From positions 1 through 45,997 of IMG/VR virus record IMGVR_UViG_3300022074_000087: DNA of 45,997 nucleotides; one strand, 5' to 3'. Position numbers and translations under genes: made by a program. Of this stretch, positions 22,093 through 36,390 are shown in pieces (the first letter of the stretch is position 1; each line of letters starts with the position of its first letter). A model generated the notes under the pieces. That model did no database searches and was not told the origin of the DNA. It saw nothing but the letters and a program-made list of their open reading frames with translations. This stretch comes from a virus.

Positions 22093-22860
22093 ATGGCACA
22101 ATATGGAAATCAATGGTGGGCAAGTGCTGGTGGTGGTTTTGAAGTTTTTGCGTGTAGGTTTGACAGTTCTGATAGTTCAGAGATGGCCAGGACAATCGGA
22201 ACACCCACGAATATAGATAAGTGGACTTGCAGTTGGTGGCAAAAAAGGTCAACAGCTGGTTTTTTTGATATTTCATTTTCTGGTCATTCAGGTGGAGAAA
22301 GCTACGACATGATATTTCATCATCAAGCAGATAATGGGATAAGGTGGGAAGCACAAGATGGAACTTCAAGTTATTCAGTGTACTCAACAAGTGGATATAG
22401 TTCTGGCACTTGGAGGCACTATGTGATGCATTATGACTCTGGAAACGGAACTTCCACAGACAGATTAAATATTTTTATAAATGGAAGTCAAGTGAGTGAG
22501 AGTACAAGATATGGTGGTCACCCAGCGTCTGGTAGAGATAGTATAGCGAACAAATCAGGTGCGTCATTTAACATAGGTCACAACCCTACATATGCTGGAA
22601 ATACAAACGGATTGTTTTCTGAGTTTACATTCGTAGATGGAAGTATTCTCGCACCAACAAGTTTTGCTCAGGACAACGGAGGAACTTGGTCTGCAAAAGA
22701 TTTTAAAGATGATATAACATTTGGTAACAATGGATTTTACCTAACTTTTTCAAATTCAAGTGCGTTAGGCGAAGATTTTTCAGGTAATGACAATGATTTT
22801 ACATTGAGTAACATTGCGTCAGACCACCAAGTAACAGATGATTTACCACCAACATCATAA
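22093..22860 (+). CDS. LamG/concanavalin-like lectin protein, 255 aa
   Basis: The fold pattern is that of a LamG/concanavalin jelly roll: DKWTCSWWQKRS (about residue 37), FDISFSGHSGGESYDMIFHH, SGTWRHYVMHYDSGNGTSTD, RLNIFINGSQVSE, and the closing ITFGNNGFYLTFSNSSALGE, FSGNDNDFTLSNIASDHQVT. It is one of three related LamG genes (with 30482 and 33878). The other two are followed by a large SPRY-like gene; this one is not, so it looks like an orphan half. Likely a receptor- or glycan-binding fibre component. AGGAG-type ribosome site present. Confidence 0.8.
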   Translation: MAQYGNQWWASAGGGFEVFACRFDSSDSSEMARTIGTPTNIDKWTCSWWQKRSTAGFFDISFSGHSGGESYDMIFHHQADNGIRWEAQDGTSSYSVYSTSGYSSGTWRHYVMHYDSGNGTSTDRLNIFINGSQVSESTRYGGHPASGRDSIANKSGASFNIGHNPTYAGNTNGLFSEFTFVDGSILAPTSFAQDNGGTWSAKDFKDDITFGNNGFYLTFSNSSALGEDFSGNDNDFTLSNIASDHQVTDDLPPTS

Positions 22861-25281: not shown

Positions 25282-27747
25282 ATGGCTGTACAGTCACAGG
25301 ACATTGCGAGTCTGTTCAAAGAACTTGAAGACGCATCAAAACTTGCAAAGTTAGAAGAAAAAGATAATAAAAAGAAAACTGAAAATCAAGTCAAAGAACT
25401 TGATGGTTTTCTTACATCTGTACAAAAAGTTGTAAAAGTAATAGAGAAAAAAGATGATGATACCCCCATTGAACCTAAGAAGATTACCGCTAAGATTGAA
25501 AAGAAAAGTAAACCCAACGGAAAAATCCAAGAACAATCCAAACCTGTTGAGAAAAAATCCTTATCAAAAGATGACACGAAAAAGTTAGACGCATTCTCTG
25601 GTCTAATCAAATCCTTTGGTGTAGAAATCAAACCAGAAATAGTTGAAGAGGATTTACAACTAAAAGTCGAAGATATCAAACCTGTTATCGTTGAACAACC
25701 TAAAGTTGATGAGAGTAAGAAGATAGAAGCTCTTGAAACTTTATTCTCTGGATTATCTGCACTCAAACCAGAACCGAAGATAGAAGAGTCTTTACTTAAG
25801 GTTGAACCAAAGAAAAAACCAAAACCTTTTGTCATAGAAACTAAAACACCTGAACCAGTCAAACCTGTTGTCGTTTCACAAACACCAGTGGATATAAGAG
25901 AGGCAATGAAACTTGTCAAAGACAAGGAATTACCTACAAAACAAGAAACAATAGAAGCAACACAACAACTTATAACAGATGTCGTTGACAACCTTGACGA
26001 TATGAAAGGTAAGACAGAAGTCAAAGAACAGATTGATGAGATAGAATTATTAAGAAAAGAGTTTAATGCACTGCAATTACAAGTAAGACAATCTTCTACA
26101 TTTGTTGGTTCTGGTTCTGGAAGTGGTGAAGTAAGACTTGAGTTTTTAGATGATGTGCAAAGGTCTACTGCAAAAGTAGATGGTAAGTTTTTAAAGTTTA
26201 GTTCCTCTGACGGAAAGTTCATTGGTGCAGATGCAAGTCCTGACACACTTGAAAATGTAACTGCTGGAACTGTGTCTGCAAGTAAAGCAGTTGTTGTAGA
26301 TAGTAACAAAGATATCACTGGTTTTAGAAATGTAACGATTGCTGGTGACCTAACAGTTCAAGGTGATACTACACAACTTAATTCATTTGTAGAAACTGAA
26401 ACTCCCTCACAAGTTTATGAGGCTTCTACTATCACGATTTTAGTTACCGTTGCAACAAAAACAACTGCACACCCTTACTATGGAGTAGGTAGTAGTAATG
26501 GTTATAAACTAAACGATACGTTCTCACCTTTTTTAAGATTGATACCAAGAAACACTTATAGGTTTGACCAGTCAGACTCAACTAACTCTGGACACCCACT
26601 ACGATTTTACTATGATGCAGCTAAATCAACTGCGTATACAAGTGGTGTCACAACAAGTGGAACACCAGGCACATCTGGTGCATACACACAGATAGTCGCA
26701 GACGAAGATACACCAGACATTTTATATTATCAATGTTCTTCACACGCACACATGGGTTTCGGTGTTTTCTTTACCACAAGAAATCTCACAGGATTTACAA
26801 CTGACAATCTAACAGAGGGTTCATCAAACAAATATGCATCTGATGAAACAGTTCAAGATATTGTCGGTGCAATGTTTAGTAGTAATACTGAAACAAGAAT
26901 AACTGCAACCTATCAAGACGCAGACGGAACAATAGATTTAATTGTTGACGCAGTGACAGATATAACTGGTAATGCTGGAACTGCAACTGCGTTAGAAACT
27001 GCAAGAACAATTGGTGGTGTATCTTTTGATGGAAGTGCAAATATAAACTTGCCAGGCGTAAATACTGCTGGTGACCAAGATACTACTGGTAATGCTGCTA
27101 CTGCAACATCAGCTGCAACACTAACAACTGCAAGAAACATACATGGTGTTTCATTTGATGGTTCTGCAAACATAGATTTATCTGAAGTTATACAAGACAC
27201 CGTTGGTGCAATGTTTGGTAGTAATACTGAAACAGGTATTTCAGTTGAGTATCAAGATGCAGACGGAACATTAGATTTAGTTGTAGGAACATTAAACCAA
27301 GATACTACTGGTAATGCAGCCACATCAGACCTTGCAACTGCAGCCAATACAGTCAAGACAGTTACAGATGGAACAAATGCAAACTTCTTCTTAACATTCG
27401 TATCAGACAATAATGGTAGTGCAACAGCAGAAGCATTAAAGACAGATAGTGGTATACAATATAATCCAAGCACAGATACTCTCTCTGTTACTAATATTAC
27501 TGCAACGATTGACGGAGTTTCATCTGCGATTAATGTTGCAGACGAGTCTTCTGATACAACTTGTTTCCCAGTATTTGTAACCAGTGCATCTGGTAATTTA
27601 GCTGCAAAGAGTGGAACAAACCTTACATTTAACTCATCAACTGGATTATTAACTGCAACATCATTTGCAGATGGTAATGGAAACACATTGACAACTGCGA
27701 CTGCAGCTGCAGAAGAAGCAACTGCATTAGGTATCGCATTAGGTTAG
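25282..27747 (+). CDS. Large fibre-like protein with cupredoxin-like domain, 821 aa
   Basis: Residues 1-270 are Lys/Glu/Pro-rich with helical stretches (LFKELEDASKLAKLEEKDNK), probably an extended attachment or coiled-coil arm. Residues 285-330 (LEFLDDVQRSTAKVDGKFLK) begin fibre modules. Residues 375-500 look like a blue-copper (cupredoxin) fold: PRNTYRFDQSDSTNSGHPLRF, later TPDILYYQCSSHAHMGFGVFF, with possible ligands H438, C485, H488 and M491. Two copies of a VQD-VGAMF-SNTET-YQDADGT module lie near residues 523-560 and 636-670, alternating with GGVSFDGSANINLPGVN-type fibre repeats. It ends ALGIALG like the protein at 19151. A tail fibre or spike is likely. Confidence 0.78.
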   Translation: MAVQSQDIASLFKELEDASKLAKLEEKDNKKKTENQVKELDGFLTSVQKVVKVIEKKDDDTPIEPKKITAKIEKKSKPNGKIQEQSKPVEKKSLSKDDTKKLDAFSGLIKSFGVEIKPEIVEEDLQLKVEDIKPVIVEQPKVDESKKIEALETLFSGLSALKPEPKIEESLLKVEPKKKPKPFVIETKTPEPVKPVVVSQTPVDIREAMKLVKDKELPTKQETIEATQQLITDVVDNLDDMKGKTEVKEQIDEIELLRKEFNALQLQVRQSSTFVGSGSGSGEVRLEFLDDVQRSTAKVDGKFLKFSSSDGKFIGADASPDTLENVTAGTVSASKAVVVDSNKDITGFRNVTIAGDLTVQGDTTQLNSFVETETPSQVYEASTITILVTVATKTTAHPYYGVGSSNGYKLNDTFSPFLRLIPRNTYRFDQSDSTNSGHPLRFYYDAAKSTAYTSGVTTSGTPGTSGAYTQIVADEDTPDILYYQCSSHAHMGFGVFFTTRNLTGFTTDNLTEGSSNKYASDETVQDIVGAMFSSNTETRITATYQDADGTIDLIVDAVTDITGNAGTATALETARTIGGVSFDGSANINLPGVNTAGDQDTTGNAATATSAATLTTARNIHGVSFDGSANIDLSEVIQDTVGAMFGSNTETGISVEYQDADGTLDLVVGTLNQDTTGNAATSDLATAANTVKTVTDGTNANFFLTFVSDNNGSATAEALKTDSGIQYNPSTDTLSVTNITATIDGVSSAINVADESSDTTCFPVFVTSASGNLAAKSGTNLTFNSSTGLLTATSFADGNGNTLTTATAAAEEATALGIALG

Positions 27748-27779: not shown

Positions 27780-28595
27780 ATGGCAATACCCAGTACAAGA
27801 GATGGTTTCAGAGATTATTGTAAGAGAGCATTAGGTTTTGGTGTTATTGATATCAATGTATCAGACGCACAGGTAGAGGACAGGATAGACGAGGGTTTAC
27901 AATATTTTGCACAATATCACTATGATGGTGTAGAAAGAATGTATCTTAAATACAAAGTTACAGAAGATGATATCACAAGAAGTAGGTCAAACGAAACAAC
28001 AACTGCAACAGATACAAAAGATGGAAATGTAACTGCGTCATTTCTAGAGGGTAGAAACTTTATTCCTATGCCTTCTTCAGTCGTGTCTGTCATACAGATA
28101 TTCCCATTTGATAATCAAGTAACAAACAATATGTTTGATATACGATATCAATTAAGACTAAACGACTTGTATGATTTTTCATCTACATCAATTATACAGT
28201 ATGAAATGACAATGCGTCACTTAGATTATCTTTCACATATACTTGTAGGTGAAGTTCCTATTCGATTTAATCAACATCAAAATAGATTGTATCTTGATAT
28301 GGATTTTCAAAATGCTATAGACGCAGACCAGTTTTTAATTATAGAGTGTTATAGAAAAGTTGACCCAGAAAGTTATACAGATATCTATGATGACATTTAT
28401 CTAAAAAGATATGTGACTGCATTAATTAAAAGACAGTGGGGTGCAAACCTTTCTAAGTTTAGTGGAGTTGCAATGTTAGGTGGTGTTACTATGAACGGTG
28501 AAACAATCTACACACAAGCACAAGAAGAAATTACAAGACTAGAGGAACAAATTCAATTAGCATTTGAAACACCTATAGATTATATGATGGGTTAA
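27780..28595 (+). CDS. 13: Neck protein gp13
   Basis: The 271-aa product has the gp13 signature at its start (TRDGFRDYCKRALGFGVIDI, VSDAQVEDRIDEGLQYFAQY, HYDGVERMYLKYKVTEDDI) and the conserved tail end (IYLKRYVTALIKRQWGANLS, EEITRLEEQIQLAFETPIDY). T4 gp13 is 309 aa. gp13 and gp14 form the neck that seals the packaged head and accepts the tail. It is followed four bases later by gene 14 and has its own late promoter. Confidence 0.93.
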   Translation: MAIPSTRDGFRDYCKRALGFGVIDINVSDAQVEDRIDEGLQYFAQYHYDGVERMYLKYKVTEDDITRSRSNETTTATDTKDGNVTASFLEGRNFIPMPSSVVSVIQIFPFDNQVTNNMFDIRYQLRLNDLYDFSSTSIIQYEMTMRHLDYLSHILVGEVPIRFNQHQNRLYLDMDFQNAIDADQFLIIECYRKVDPESYTDIYDDIYLKRYVTALIKRQWGANLSKFSGVAMLGGVTMNGETIYTQAQEEITRLEEQIQLAFETPIDYMMG

Positions 28596-29705: not shown

Positions 29706-30482
29706 ATGCTAGGACAACAATTCTATCATGAAACAATGCGAAAAGTAGTTGTCGCATTTGGAACAATATTTAACAACATAAACATTGTAAGAAAAAACAA
29801 TAGTGGAACAATCATTCAAAAAATGAAAGTTCCTCTTGCATACGGGCCTGCACAAAAGTTTTTAACAAGACTTGACAATGACCCTTCCTTAAAAAATAAA
29901 GTTGCAGTTACTTTACCACGAATAGGTTTTGAGATTGCAAATTTAGCTTACGACCCTGTAAGAAAATTAAATAGGGTACAAAAGTTCAAGAAGGTTAAAT
30001 CATCTGATAAAAATAAATTAGATGTTCAGTATATGCCCGTTCCATATAATTTAGATTTTAGTTTGTATGTCATGGCAAAAAACTCTGATGATGCATTACA
30101 GATTGTAGAACAAATACTTCCTTACTTTCAACCAGACTACACAATTACTATTAATGATATGTCTGATATGGGTATTAAAAGAGATGTCCCTATCATATTA
30201 AGTTCTGTAAGTTATGAAGATAGTTATCAAGGTAACTTTGAAGAAAGAAGAGCTATCATGTATACAATGTCATTTACTGCTAAATTTTATCTATATGGGC
30301 CCGTTACTTCTGATAAAGTTATTAAGACAGTTCAGGTTGACCAGTTTACAGATGCAAAGGTTAACGCACCAACAAGAGAACAAAGGTATACGGTTACACC
30401 AAATCCAGCAACTTCGAGTGCAGATGATGACTTTGGATTTAATGAAACCTCATCATTCTTTCAAGACGCTGGGGATAGTTAA
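29706..30482 (+). CDS. 15: Tail sheath stabilizer / tail completion protein gp15
   Basis: A 258-aa protein with the gp15 signature: GQQFYHETMRKVVVAFGTIF, NNINIVRKN, KVPLAYGPAQKFLTRLDND, then VTLPRIGFEIANLAYDPVRK and VPYNLDFSLYVMAKNSDDAL. T4 gp15 is 272 aa. It caps the tail tube and sheath and joins the tail to the neck. Its stop overlaps the next start (TAATG), the left edge of the lectin cassette that here separates genes 15 and 16. Confidence 0.94.
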   Translation: MLGQQFYHETMRKVVVAFGTIFNNINIVRKNNSGTIIQKMKVPLAYGPAQKFLTRLDNDPSLKNKVAVTLPRIGFEIANLAYDPVRKLNRVQKFKKVKSSDKNKLDVQYMPVPYNLDFSLYVMAKNSDDALQIVEQILPYFQPDYTITINDMSDMGIKRDVPIILSSVSYEDSYQGNFEERRAIMYTMSFTAKFYLYGPVTSDKVIKTVQVDQFTDAKVNAPTREQRYTVTPNPATSSADDDFGFNETSSFFQDAGDS

Positions 30483-31306
30483 TGCCGTTTTCTAAAGACT
30501 TATTAATAGGTGCAAGTGGTAATCAAGGTGCTGCTGGTTTTTATGATTATCAGATAGAAAAAACAGCTAGATTTGATGAAGGAGATAGTAGTTATTTAAC
30601 TCGTACCAATAGTGGAACACCTACTAATGAAGATGTAGGTTTAATATCTTTTTGGTTTAAAAGAGGTAATAATATTGGTTCTACTACAAATGAAGCAATA
30701 GCAGGAGCAGACCCTACTGATATTAGAATAGAATTTAATACAGGTAATCCTTCAGGGTATAGTGATGCTATGCCATTCATATTTAATTCTGGTTCTTCAT
30801 CATTTACTACACAACGAAGATTTCGTGACCCTAGTGGTTGGACAAGTTTTATAATGGAATATAATTCAGATGATTCTACTGCTGCTGATAGAATAAAAAT
30901 ATACATTAATGGTGTTCAATTAGGTGCATTTAGTGATAGTTCAGTATGGCACGCAAATGGAACTAATACTCAAGGGTCAGGAATAGATTTTGGTTTTACA
31001 GATAACGGTGATACTGTAAACTTTGGTAGAAGTCCAAGTAATAGTGGTTCTTATTATGATGGTTATATAGCAGAAATAATATGTTTAGATGGTTCTGGCT
31101 CATATACAGATGTAGGCGAATTTAAAAATGGAGTCTGGATACCCAAAGACCCAAGTGGTTTAACATTCGGTAATAATGGCTATCATCTAAAGTTTGGAAA
31201 CGCAAGTGATTTGGGCGAAGACAGTTCAGGAAATGATAATGATTTCACAGCAAACAATATGGGCACTGACCATCAAGTGCTAGATAGCCCAACATTTGGC
31301 TCATAG
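30482..31306 (+). CDS. LamG/concanavalin-like lectin protein, 274 aa
   Basis: A LamG-type jelly roll: VGLISFWFKRGNNIGSTTNE (about residue 52), SGWTSFIMEYNSDDSTAADR-type strand, IKIYINGVQLGAFSDSSVWH, and the closing LTFGNNGYHLKFGNASDLGE, SSGNDNDFTANNMGTDHQVL. It is paralogous to the genes at 22093 and 33878. In many marine phage proteins this domain continues in one chain into NNFATLNPL and a SPRY-like part; here a TAG separates it from the next ORF, which begins with that very segment. Its ATG overlaps the gene 15 stop. Probably receptor binding. Confidence 0.8.
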   Translation: MPFSKDLLIGASGNQGAAGFYDYQIEKTARFDEGDSSYLTRTNSGTPTNEDVGLISFWFKRGNNIGSTTNEAIAGADPTDIRIEFNTGNPSGYSDAMPFIFNSGSSSFTTQRRFRDPSGWTSFIMEYNSDDSTAADRIKIYINGVQLGAFSDSSVWHANGTNTQGSGIDFGFTDNGDTVNFGRSPSNSGSYYDGYIAEIICLDGSGSYTDVGEFKNGVWIPKDPSGLTFGNNGYHLKFGNASDLGEDSSGNDNDFTANNMGTDHQVLDSPTFGS

Positions 31307-31315
31307 GAGAGAATA

Positions 31316-33109
31316 ATGGCAAGTAGTGGAAATTTTGCAACTTTAAATCCTTTAAATACAAGGGGAAGTTCAGCATCTTCTATGATTACAAATGGCAACC
31401 TTCAATATAATGGACAAGCGACACAAGATGAGGCTGGTTGTACTATTAATGTAGGTTATGGTGGTGTACCTAAAGTATATTTTGAAATGTATATTATAAA
31501 CAATCACGACACTGGGTGGATTGGAGTTTATGACACTCATCAGATGACTTTAAAATATGAAAAAGCCTATGGAACTACTTCTTATAGAGCATTACTTGTT
31601 CGTACTACACAGAAGGTAACAGGAAGCACTACAAGTAATTACATTGGAGATGGAAGTGATAACAACAGTAGAAGTGGTCAGACTATTGGGGTTGCAATTG
31701 ATGTTCCTAATCAAAAAATATGGTTTGCAGTAAATGATGCGTGGGGGAGTGATGGTGCTAGTGACCCCTCTGATAGTAATTATGCTTTCAATGATTTAAG
31801 TGCGACTGGTTGTTATGATGTGGTAACTCACATGGGTGGTGCCTCTGTAGCACAACCAGATTGGTGTTTTAACTTTGGTCAAGATTCTACATTTCAAGGC
31901 AGAGAAACTGCTGGTGGTAATGCAGATGGAAACGGCTTCGGCGATTTTAGATATGCGCCGCCATCAGGTTTTGTTGCATTATGTTCAGCTAACATATCTG
32001 TGGGAACAAGTATAGACCCAGCAGAAACAGACGATAATCACCCACAAAAAAATTTCAATGCACTAATATACTCAGGTGATGGAACTTCTTCAAATGGAAT
32101 AACAGGACTTGGCTTTCAGCCCGACCTCACTTGGATTAAAGAGAGAAATGGTACAAATACATATTCTCATTCAATGCACGATACGAGTAGAGGAAGAGCT
32201 AGAGTTATTTTTGCAGAAGATGATAGAGAAGAAGACGGTTCTACATCTACACAAGATTTAGTTTCATTTGACACTGATGGATTTACAGTTGGAACAAGTA
32301 ATGAGTCCAAAGTAAACGGCACAGGTTCATCATTTATTTCTTGGAATTGGAGATGTAATGCTGGAACGACTGCAACAAACACATCTGGAACGATTACCTC
32401 AACCGTACAAGCAAATCAAGATTTAGGATTCTCAATTGTAACATGGACAGGCACAGGAACATCAGGTACAGTAGGGCATGGACTAAGTTCAGCTCCTGAT
32501 TGTATGTGGATAAAAAATAGAAGTGATGATATATCTTCTGATGGAGATGCGAATGGTCGGAGTTGGACAATATTTCACACTTCATTAGGTGCTGGGAGTA
32601 TTCTTAGTTTAGATGAAACTCATAATGCAGAAACAGGAACAGGTTATTTAGGTGGTACAGCCCCAACAAGCAGTGTTTTTACAGTTAACACAAGTGTAGA
32701 TTCAAATGAAAGTTCTCACGCAATGATTGCTTATTGTTGGCATAATATTGAAGGCTTTCAAAAGTTTGGCTCGTACAAAGGCAACGGCAATTCTGATGGG
32801 CCTTTTGTATATACAGGCTTTAGACCAAGATTAATGATGCTAAAAATGTCAGATGGAAGTTACTCAGAACAATGGAATATGTGGGATTCTGTTGATGATG
32901 CAAAAGCTGACCCCTGTGGAAATCCATTAGGCGAATTTCATAGAATTAATGAAGGAACTGAGTCAACATCTACCTCTCTTAATGTTGATTTTTTATCTAA
33001 CGGTTTCAAGATTAGAGGCAGTAATACTGAAATGAACGAAAGCAATAAAAACGTAGTTTATTTTGCATGGGCTGATATACCTTTCAAGTACAATAATTCG
33101 TTCTCATAA
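31316..33109 (+). CDS. SPRY-like/tail-surface protein, 597 aa
   Basis: Starts MASSGNFATLNPLNTRG. Residues 35-220 resemble a SPRY/B30.2-type sandwich (KVYFEMYIINNHDTGWIGVY, TIGVAIDVPNQKIWFAVND, DWCFNFGQDSTFQGRETAGG). Residues 240-597 are a second module seen widely in marine phage tail proteins (I recall it as DUF7483): LGFQPDLTWIKERNGTNTYS, TGTGTSGTVGHGLSSAPDCM, AYCWHNIEGFQKFGSYKGNG, GFRPRLMMLKMSDG, FLSNGFKIRGSNTEMNESNK. The pair of modules suggests a glycan- or receptor-binding surface protein. GGAGAG lies before the start, nine bases after the LamG gene. The gene uses GGC glycine codons more than the backbone genes. Confidence 0.75.
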   Translation: MASSGNFATLNPLNTRGSSASSMITNGNLQYNGQATQDEAGCTINVGYGGVPKVYFEMYIINNHDTGWIGVYDTHQMTLKYEKAYGTTSYRALLVRTTQKVTGSTTSNYIGDGSDNNSRSGQTIGVAIDVPNQKIWFAVNDAWGSDGASDPSDSNYAFNDLSATGCYDVVTHMGGASVAQPDWCFNFGQDSTFQGRETAGGNADGNGFGDFRYAPPSGFVALCSANISVGTSIDPAETDDNHPQKNFNALIYSGDGTSSNGITGLGFQPDLTWIKERNGTNTYSHSMHDTSRGRARVIFAEDDREEDGSTSTQDLVSFDTDGFTVGTSNESKVNGTGSSFISWNWRCNAGTTATNTSGTITSTVQANQDLGFSIVTWTGTGTSGTVGHGLSSAPDCMWIKNRSDDISSDGDANGRSWTIFHTSLGAGSILSLDETHNAETGTGYLGGTAPTSSVFTVNTSVDSNESSHAMIAYCWHNIEGFQKFGSYKGNGNSDGPFVYTGFRPRLMMLKMSDGSYSEQWNMWDSVDDAKADPCGNPLGEFHRINEGTESTSTSLNVDFLSNGFKIRGSNTEMNESNKNVVYFAWADIPFKYNNSFS

Positions 33110-34713: not shown

Positions 34714-36390
34714 ATGGCAAGTAGTGGAAATTTTTGTGTATTTACAGCAGACCTCAGATATGAGAGTCCTTACAGTACAACAGACCAACATTCAGGAGGT
34801 GGTCTAGATGTTAAAGGGCCAGGTAGTGGTAGTTTTGAACCTAATCAAGCAACCTTTACTCCTATGAGTGGAAAATGGTATTGGGAATATAGAGCAGGAC
34901 AAGGTGGTGGTAGTAGTTACGGTAGACCAGCTATAGCAGTATCAAATCAAGCGCATACACAAAATGAAGATTATTACGGTGGTGGCACTGGAATAACAGG
35001 AGTTATGTTTGCAGCTAATAATGGAAATAAAAGAATTAATGGTAGTGATACTTCTTATGGTACAGCAGTAAGTCAAAATGATATAGTTCAAATGGCATTA
35101 GATTGTGATAATGGTGCAATGTATTTTGGTATAAACAATACTTGGCAAAACTCTGGTGACCCTACAAGTGGTGCGAGTAAAACTGGAGCCGCATTATCTA
35201 CTGGTATTCAAAACGTCCCTATAGAAATTCAACATACAAGATATGCTGGTGGAGGAATAGACCGATACAACTTTGGCCAAGACTCTACATTTGACGGCGC
35301 TGTGACAGCATCAACTAATGCTGATGGGAATGGCCATGGTACATTTGCATATTCGCCACCATCTGGATATCTCACACTCTGCTCAGCTAATTTACCTTTG
35401 GCAGAAGCATTAGACTCAGCACAAGATAATCCACCTAGTAACTATACTGATGTTGTTACTTATACTGGAACTGGTAGCACACAAAGTATTACAGGTTTAA
35501 ATTTTCAACCTGATTGGATATTAATTAAAAATCGTGATGTAAATGATAGTTGGTTAAATATGAATAGTGTAACAGGATTAGGAAAAACTCACGCATGGGA
35601 CACTGCTGCTCCTTATCAAGATGAAACTGATTGTGTAACAGCATTTAATAGTAATGGATTTACTGTCAGCACAAATCACAGAGTAAATGCAAGCACAGAA
35701 AAATATGTTGCGTATTGTTGGAAAAGAAGTACAGATGCTGGATTTGATATCGTTGAGTACAGTGGAAATGGTAGCACACAAGCAGTCAGTCATAATTTAG
35801 GTGCAACGCCTGAAATGATAATGATGCACTTAAAATCAGGAACAAATGTGGACGGCACTATGTTTATGGACTCATCAGTTGCAGAAAGTATGGGTACAGG
35901 AGAAGGTGTTTTTATGAGTCTTAGTGCTGCTGCTCAGACTACAACTTATATGTCATCTGTGTCAAGTACGGCCTTTACCATGCCTTCAACTTCTCTGAAC
36001 CAAACTGGTAGAACTTATGTTGCTTATGTATTCAGAGGTATAGAAGGCTTCAGTAAATTTGGACAGTATGAAGGCAATGGCGATGCTGACGGGCCCTTCA
36101 TATTTACCGGCTTTAGACCAAGACATTTTTATATTAAAAAAATAGACGGCACAGGAAACTGGGAAGTAAGAGATACTGCTAGAGATATAAACAACCCTTT
36201 AGACTCAACAATTCTTTGGGACTCAAACACACTAGAAGCATCTAGTGTAGCTAGTAGTGCTTATCCAGTGGACGTGTTTAGTAATGGATTTAAATTAAGA
36301 ACCACTAGTGCTAATTATAATACAGCTAATAACGGTTATATCTACGGCGCCTGGGCAGATGTTCCGTTCAAATATAATAATGCTTTCTGA
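34714..36390 (+). CDS. SPRY-like/tail-surface protein, 558 aa
   Basis: Starts MASSGNFCVFTADLRYESPY, the same first seven residues as the gene at 31316. Residues 40-200 look like a SPRY-type sandwich (MSGKWYWEYRAGQGGGSSYG, DIVQMALDCDNGAMYFGINN, YNFGQDSTFDGAVTASTNAD). Residues 230-558 repeat the second module of the 31316 protein: LNFQPDWILIKNRDVNDSWL, GSTQAVSHNLGATPEMIMMH, YVFRGIEGFSKFGQYEGNGD, GFRPRHFYIKKIDGTGNWEV, VDVFSNGFKLRTTSANYNTA. The start lacks a separate Shine-Dalgarno except GGAG inside the preceding gene, suggesting coupling. Its stop overlaps the gene 16 start (TGATG). Confidence 0.75.
   Translation: MASSGNFCVFTADLRYESPYSTTDQHSGGGLDVKGPGSGSFEPNQATFTPMSGKWYWEYRAGQGGGSSYGRPAIAVSNQAHTQNEDYYGGGTGITGVMFAANNGNKRINGSDTSYGTAVSQNDIVQMALDCDNGAMYFGINNTWQNSGDPTSGASKTGAALSTGIQNVPIEIQHTRYAGGGIDRYNFGQDSTFDGAVTASTNADGNGHGTFAYSPPSGYLTLCSANLPLAEALDSAQDNPPSNYTDVVTYTGTGSTQSITGLNFQPDWILIKNRDVNDSWLNMNSVTGLGKTHAWDTAAPYQDETDCVTAFNSNGFTVSTNHRVNASTEKYVAYCWKRSTDAGFDIVEYSGNGSTQAVSHNLGATPEMIMMHLKSGTNVDGTMFMDSSVAESMGTGEGVFMSLSAAAQTTTYMSSVSSTAFTMPSTSLNQTGRTYVAYVFRGIEGFSKFGQYEGNGDADGPFIFTGFRPRHFYIKKIDGTGNWEVRDTARDINNPLDSTILWDSNTLEASSVASSAYPVDVFSNGFKLRTTSANYNTANNGYIYGAWADVPFKYNNAF

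Follow-up and report, generated by a model that had tools for sequence, protein, structure and literature searches.

A tail-fibre protein encoded by a virus record of 45,997 bases (hereafter the window) raises the question of whether a phage virion can carry a blue-copper site. An initial annotation, made from the sequence of this record, had pointed to four residues of an 821-aa open reading frame as a cupredoxin-like, and in particular amicyanin-like, set of copper ligands. Both the frame and the segments quoted from it are present at 25282–27747 (+ strand), and H438 (26593–26595, +), C485 (26734–26736, +), H488 (26743–26745, +) and M491 (26752–26754, +) all occur at the residues given. The analysis described here indicates that the fibre domain very probably belongs to the cupredoxins, has a type-1 copper site and is a shuffled module of marine phage tails.

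The fibre gene and its genomic setting

The window has a T4-like gene set that includes baseplate hub and wedge proteins, a neck adaptor, head closure, sheath stabilizer, terminase and sheath. Short stretches of its portal and sheath genes were closest to those of Pelagibacter phages Mosig and HTVC008M. The fibre gene immediately precedes the neck genes, among them that of a head-tail adaptor Ad2 similar to T4 neck gp13 (27780–28595, +; phrog_211, E 1.5e-42). The best PHROG match of the fibre protein is phrog_30742, a tail fiber protein, at E 1.1e-79 over residues 342–535. The protein begins with a charged third rich in Lys, Glu and Pro, which from a reading of the translation extends over approximately residues 1–270 (25282–26091, +), followed by a fibre-like segment, the domain under study at about residues 385–502 (26434–26787, +), and stretches that match many tail-fibre families, including a repeat region at residues 549–689 (26926–27348, +; phrog_6722, 22609, 26292 and 7911). 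As a separate observation, four structural genes of the window (22093–22860, 30482–31306, 31316–33109 and 34714–36390) match the same PHROG families (phrog_19943, phrog_27411 and phrog_24898) and constitute a paralogue set scattered across the neck and terminase region.

The domain is predicted to adopt a cupredoxin fold

An AlphaFold2 model of the domain, generated from an alignment of 37 loci, consisted of a beta sandwich of nine strands with a mean pLDDT of 86, values of 91–98 in blocks across construct residues 21–130, and a core at about 97. H438 was placed directly before a strand, C485 ended a strand, and the loop that precedes the last strand held both H488 and M491; this is the cupredoxin arrangement. 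The proposal that H438 occupies the place of the first cupredoxin ligand is thus in line with the model and also with profile alignments, in which this residue aligns with H53 of amicyanin.

Comparison of the model with the PDB by Foldseek gave eight matches at E ≤ 0.001, every one of them a rusticyanin, with a probability of 1.00 for the best. The remainder of the best 50 matches were almost all small laccases, copper nitrite reductases, multicopper oxidases and the Nitrosopumilus purple cupredoxin; coagulation factor Va, likewise made of cupredoxin-like domains, appeared once. The TM-scores to solved cupredoxins lay in a moderate range, at 0.44 by query and, for 5fc9, 0.63 by target, and the rmsd was large, so that the phage domain would be a divergent member of the group. 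From the strand count and the Foldseek matches, a cupredoxin fold (a beta sandwich of around eight strands) is confidently predicted, as the initial annotation had expected. The model was also matched by three small beta-sandwich proteins of Pithovirus- or Marseillevirus-like giant viruses (BFVD entries A0A481Z6J5, A0A481Z7Q7 and A0A481YY19).

Sequence kinship to known cupredoxins

When the window domain was used as a single sequence, phmmer returned no match at E 10 among PDB sequences, making profiles necessary. A profile restricted to the window family produced weak matches, led by a multicopper oxidase (0.079), with pseudoazurin second (0.34). A profile of relatives, built from five sequences (P-SSM2 proximal fibre, P-GSP1 and locus L095), recovered the window domain at 1e-8 and matched copper nitrite reductase 2vmj at 3e-5, plastocyanin at 8e-4, amicyanin at 0.013 and pseudoazurin at 0.014. 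Nearly all of its best 60 PDB matches were cupredoxins, with the ligands aligned. In hhalign comparisons, for which E-values of single pairs are uncalibrated, the phage family scored 75–96% against known cupredoxins, depending on the set, versus at most 2.6% for column-shuffled controls (n=60), and all four ligands were in register, including those of amicyanin. The score against a single rusticyanin sequence was 3.4% and not significant. The amicyanin, plastocyanin, pseudoazurin and rusticyanin sequences used with hhalign were entered by hand, and the PDB searches are independent of them.

In Pfam and NCBIfam no cupredoxin family matched the window protein above its cut-off, and PF00127 (Copper-bind) gave no match at all. 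The P-SSM2 relative reached 20.8 bits against PF00127, below the cut-off of 21.2, and 20.9 bits against the NCBIfam amicyanin model, for which the cut-off is 110.2. Below-cut-off matches to PF25489 (At5g54830-like) were found in 11 of 37 family members. Over 114 aa the P-SSM2 proximal-fibre copy shares 39% identity with two 148-aa Prochlorococcus proteins (L192 and L193), which do exceed the PF00127 cut-off. At the level of sequence, kinship to known cupredoxins is therefore present by way of profiles and relatives.

Conservation of the predicted ligands

Conservation was counted over 61 non-identical homologue sequences of the fibre form. Both His residues, H438 and H488, are found in all 61, as is M491, predicted to be the axial ligand, with Leu in two distant copies. 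C485, which would provide the thiolate, is kept in 60; the sole exception is a Ser in one of the two L038 copies. The conservation of C485 and H488, on which the initial annotation had made its reading depend, is thus nearly complete. G492 is invariant (61/61), and Y426, F428, P478, L481 and Y483 are invariant or almost so.

The sequence pattern of a type-1 site, that is, a His before a strand and then a conserved Cys-x(n)-His-x(n)-Met at the last loop, is present, the ligand loop of the fibre protein being C485-S-S-H488-A-H-M491. The motif C-x2-H-x2-M occurs twice in the approximately 92,000 residues of the six-frame translation of the window, one occurrence being the C485–M491 site, and is by itself weak evidence; a chance origin is excluded because the four residues are conserved across the 61 sequences. 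The loop spacing supports the earlier description of the site as amicyanin-like, but the domain is no amicyanin; the window protein had no NCBIfam match. The residue that follows H438 is Pro in 58 of the 61 homologues.

The fibre-form family shows in addition an almost invariant N-terminal H-x-Y-x-G-x-G-S (residues 397–408, window 26470–26505). Its His, H397, is present in 56 of the 61 sequences, with a gap in the others, and plays no part in the copper site as predicted; it could serve a second metal or packing.

The ligands are kept or lost together

The full H, C, H, M set was found in 413 of 464 domain copies from the fetched loci, a share that is biased upward because conserved peptides served as seeds for part of the scanning. 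Copies that lack the Cys nearly always lack further ligands, the exceptions being two H-S-H-M rows, and the Met is almost always kept where the Cys is. In degenerate copies the ligand loop could be aligned only approximately. Clustering at 60% identity left 38 groups with the Cys and both His, four with neither and none that was mixed. As the sequences are related, a Fisher test on the joint loss of ligands serves only as a guide.

Several degenerate copies stand next to intact ones. In the gp7 tandem copies of P-HM2 (L172), MED4-213 (L176) and their relatives, the first copy has K and D at the first two ligand positions and no Met, and the second, adjoining copy in P-HM2 and MED4-213 is intact. 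One degraded and one intact copy are likewise found in L158, and L152 is also a tandem of this kind. For ligand-less gp7 copies AlphaFold2 yielded a low-confidence model only (pLDDT 41.8). These tandems (L172, L176, L158 and L152) constitute a natural test pair for the role of the site.

The domain is spread as a module in marine phages

Matches were found in 34 phage records for the fibre form, 80 for a short form and 351 for a related form that is mainly the C-terminus of gp9, the baseplate-fibre connector. By name, the records belong to Synechococcus, Prochlorococcus, Pelagibacter and Methylophilales phages, cyanophages and marine viruses, which bears out the mention in the initial annotation of similar segments in other marine phage proteins. 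All seven gp9 proteins read, from marine cyanophages of seven genera (L433–L439), carry the C-terminal domain with the full H plus C-x2-H-x2-M set; in at least six of these seven genomes the gene after gp9 bears another copy with the same residues. The T4_gp9_10_N domain was kept at the gp9 N-terminus in the two proteins tested. Cultured marine phages have intact sites in both fibre and gp9 proteins; S-RIM8, Syn10, P-SSM2, Bellamy and Mosig are among the cultured carriers of the module. The carriers thus comprise fibres, gp9, gp7-like wedge proteins, the product of the gene after gp9 and the P-SSM2 proximal fibre, and the presence of the domain at differing places in differing proteins indicates that it moves as a module. 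The carriers are currently labelled tail fiber, baseplate wedge tail fiber connector or hypothetical protein, and no cupredoxin annotation appeared in the records read for related phage proteins.

Outside viruses the domain is rare. One scan of the genome collection yielded 15 loci, several of them apparently phage contigs, and no match was found in the plasmids searched. A common picocyanobacterial host gene was considered as the origin of the module and rejected, since the window-type domain was present in only one of 145 cyanobacterial genomes sampled and several of the genome-collection matches may be phage contigs binned with their hosts. The Prochlorococcus cupredoxins L192 and L193 may have given rise to the phage module, or may themselves derive from it. 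These two proteins look secreted, and the HPF context of their first ligand is unusual. The domain was also seen in very large open frames away from obvious phage genes, of 2970 aa in a Prochlorococcus marinus MIT 9201 contig (L094) and 3942 aa in Gammaproteobacteria MED685 (G011), which may encode bacterial surface proteins.

Alternative explanations for the site

Ig-like beta-sandwich decorations are common in phage tails, and one viral structural relative of the domain is named an immunoglobulin-domain protein, so that an ordinary decoration with a coincidental C-x2-H-x2-M has to be considered. The invariance of the four residues, the cupredoxins at the top of the PDB fold matches and the profile matches with aligned ligands contradict this explanation and leave it a very small probability. 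A redox role, in which the copper centre would pass electrons, scavenge reactive oxygen or sense the redox state to trigger the tail, could be proposed because cupredoxins are mostly electron carriers and the solved structures closest in fold come from electron-transfer or oxidase domains. However, the window encodes no partner redox protein, and the many positions of the domain in different proteins argue against a single docking partner; we regard such a role as improbable. Hardly more probable, in our estimate, is a metal lure, with copper-loaded domains mimicking a copper carrier and binding the phage to a copper receptor on the host surface. There is a precedent for this idea with iron in T4-like tail fibres (discussed in PMC11705849), and both fibres and gp9, which sits at the fibre socket, carry the domain. 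Against it, the module occurs in phages whose hosts are unrelated (Synechococcus, Prochlorococcus, Pelagibacter and Methylophilales) and extends beyond the fibre tips to baseplate proteins and to a shaft position, where a receptor binder would be unexpected.

A further alternative accepts the same fold and site and supposes that the site is empty in the virion or holds zinc or iron, the residues being kept for folding or for some purpose other than copper. The Pro next to the first His, in place of Asn, would agree with this, as would the near absence of free copper from the cytoplasm in which phages are assembled. In contrast, Cys-His-His-Met in a cupredoxin fold is the textbook type-1 copper set, the ligand set is lost as a unit where it is lost, and the Met nearly always stays with the Cys; we consider this alternative unlikely, though it deserves more weight than those above.

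A predicted copper site and its possible role

The explanation that we prefer, and hold to be likely, is that residues 385–502, within the fibre of a marine T4-like phage, form a cupredoxin domain whose type-1 copper site is complete, and that this domain is one of a family of modules shuffled among tail proteins. From the completeness of the site and the kinship to cupredoxins we infer that the domain would bind copper. The predicted site would take up one copper ion, and given the scarcity of free copper in the cytoplasm, loading would probably follow lysis. The result would be a compact outer domain of the fibre or baseplate, stapled by its metal: copper would fix the ligand loop and stabilise a surface that serves in attachment. 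A metal-stabilised attachment module is most likely the role of the domain, although this assignment is uncertain and weaker than that of the site itself.

The module is present in several hundred sequenced marine phages, and its occurrence in tail and baseplate proteins of so many of them suggests that marine phage particles carry copper. gp9 is the fibre socket of the T4-like baseplate, and in the seven proteins read its C-terminus is an intact cupredoxin-type domain. More speculatively, and with less than even probability, most marine T4-like phage virions may be copper-bearing, with many sites on the fibres and the gp9 socket, occupancy may affect attachment or fibre deployment, and the organically bound copper of seawater may include a measurable pool in phages. 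If the preferred explanation is true, copper can be added to the trace metals under discussion for marine phages, a chemical handle on marine phage attachment becomes available, and a large set of structural proteins acquires a domain label. No cupredoxin of a phage virion was found in the literature searched, which covered a minority of subscription papers and no preprints; the fold and the site are known ones, and their setting in a virion appears to be undescribed in that literature.

Comparison with known systems

The published metal sites of tail fibres are iron-binding HxH motifs, as in T4 gp37 and Alteromonas phage R22Y (PMC11705849). The fibre domain resembles them in having a metal site, predicted in our case, in a phage tail fibre. 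In those fibres, however, iron is held between the HxH motifs of the trimer, with no separate fold and no Cys, whereas the phage domain would have a Cys-His-His-Met site within one chain and a fold of its own. A conserved HxH pattern was not found here: the domain has a single H-x-H (H488-A-H490), which is part of the ligand loop and lacks conservation of its second His across the homologues. Outside the domain the protein was read by eye.

Closer relatives are the domains of other marine phages (phrog_30742 fibres, gp9 of phrog_677, gp7-like proteins and the P-SSM2 proximal fibre), which belong to the same family and have the same ligand set but differ in carrier protein and position, some having tandem copies without the site. 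The Prochlorococcus proteins L192 and L193 are similar to the P-SSM2 copy in the HPF after the first ligand and in a YYYVC-x2-H ligand loop. Unlike the phage domains, they stand alone, have a signal-like N-terminus and use a C-x2-H-x4-M loop as in plastocyanin.

With amicyanin, pseudoazurin, plastocyanin (PF00127) and rusticyanin the phage domain has in common the predicted fold and the order and placing of the ligands, and with amicyanin also an identical C-x2-H-x2-M loop spacing. Amicyanin and plastocyanin usually have Asn after the first His, where the phage domain has Pro. The small blue copper proteins are secreted electron carriers, whereas the phage version is a domain within a fibre and has longer loops.
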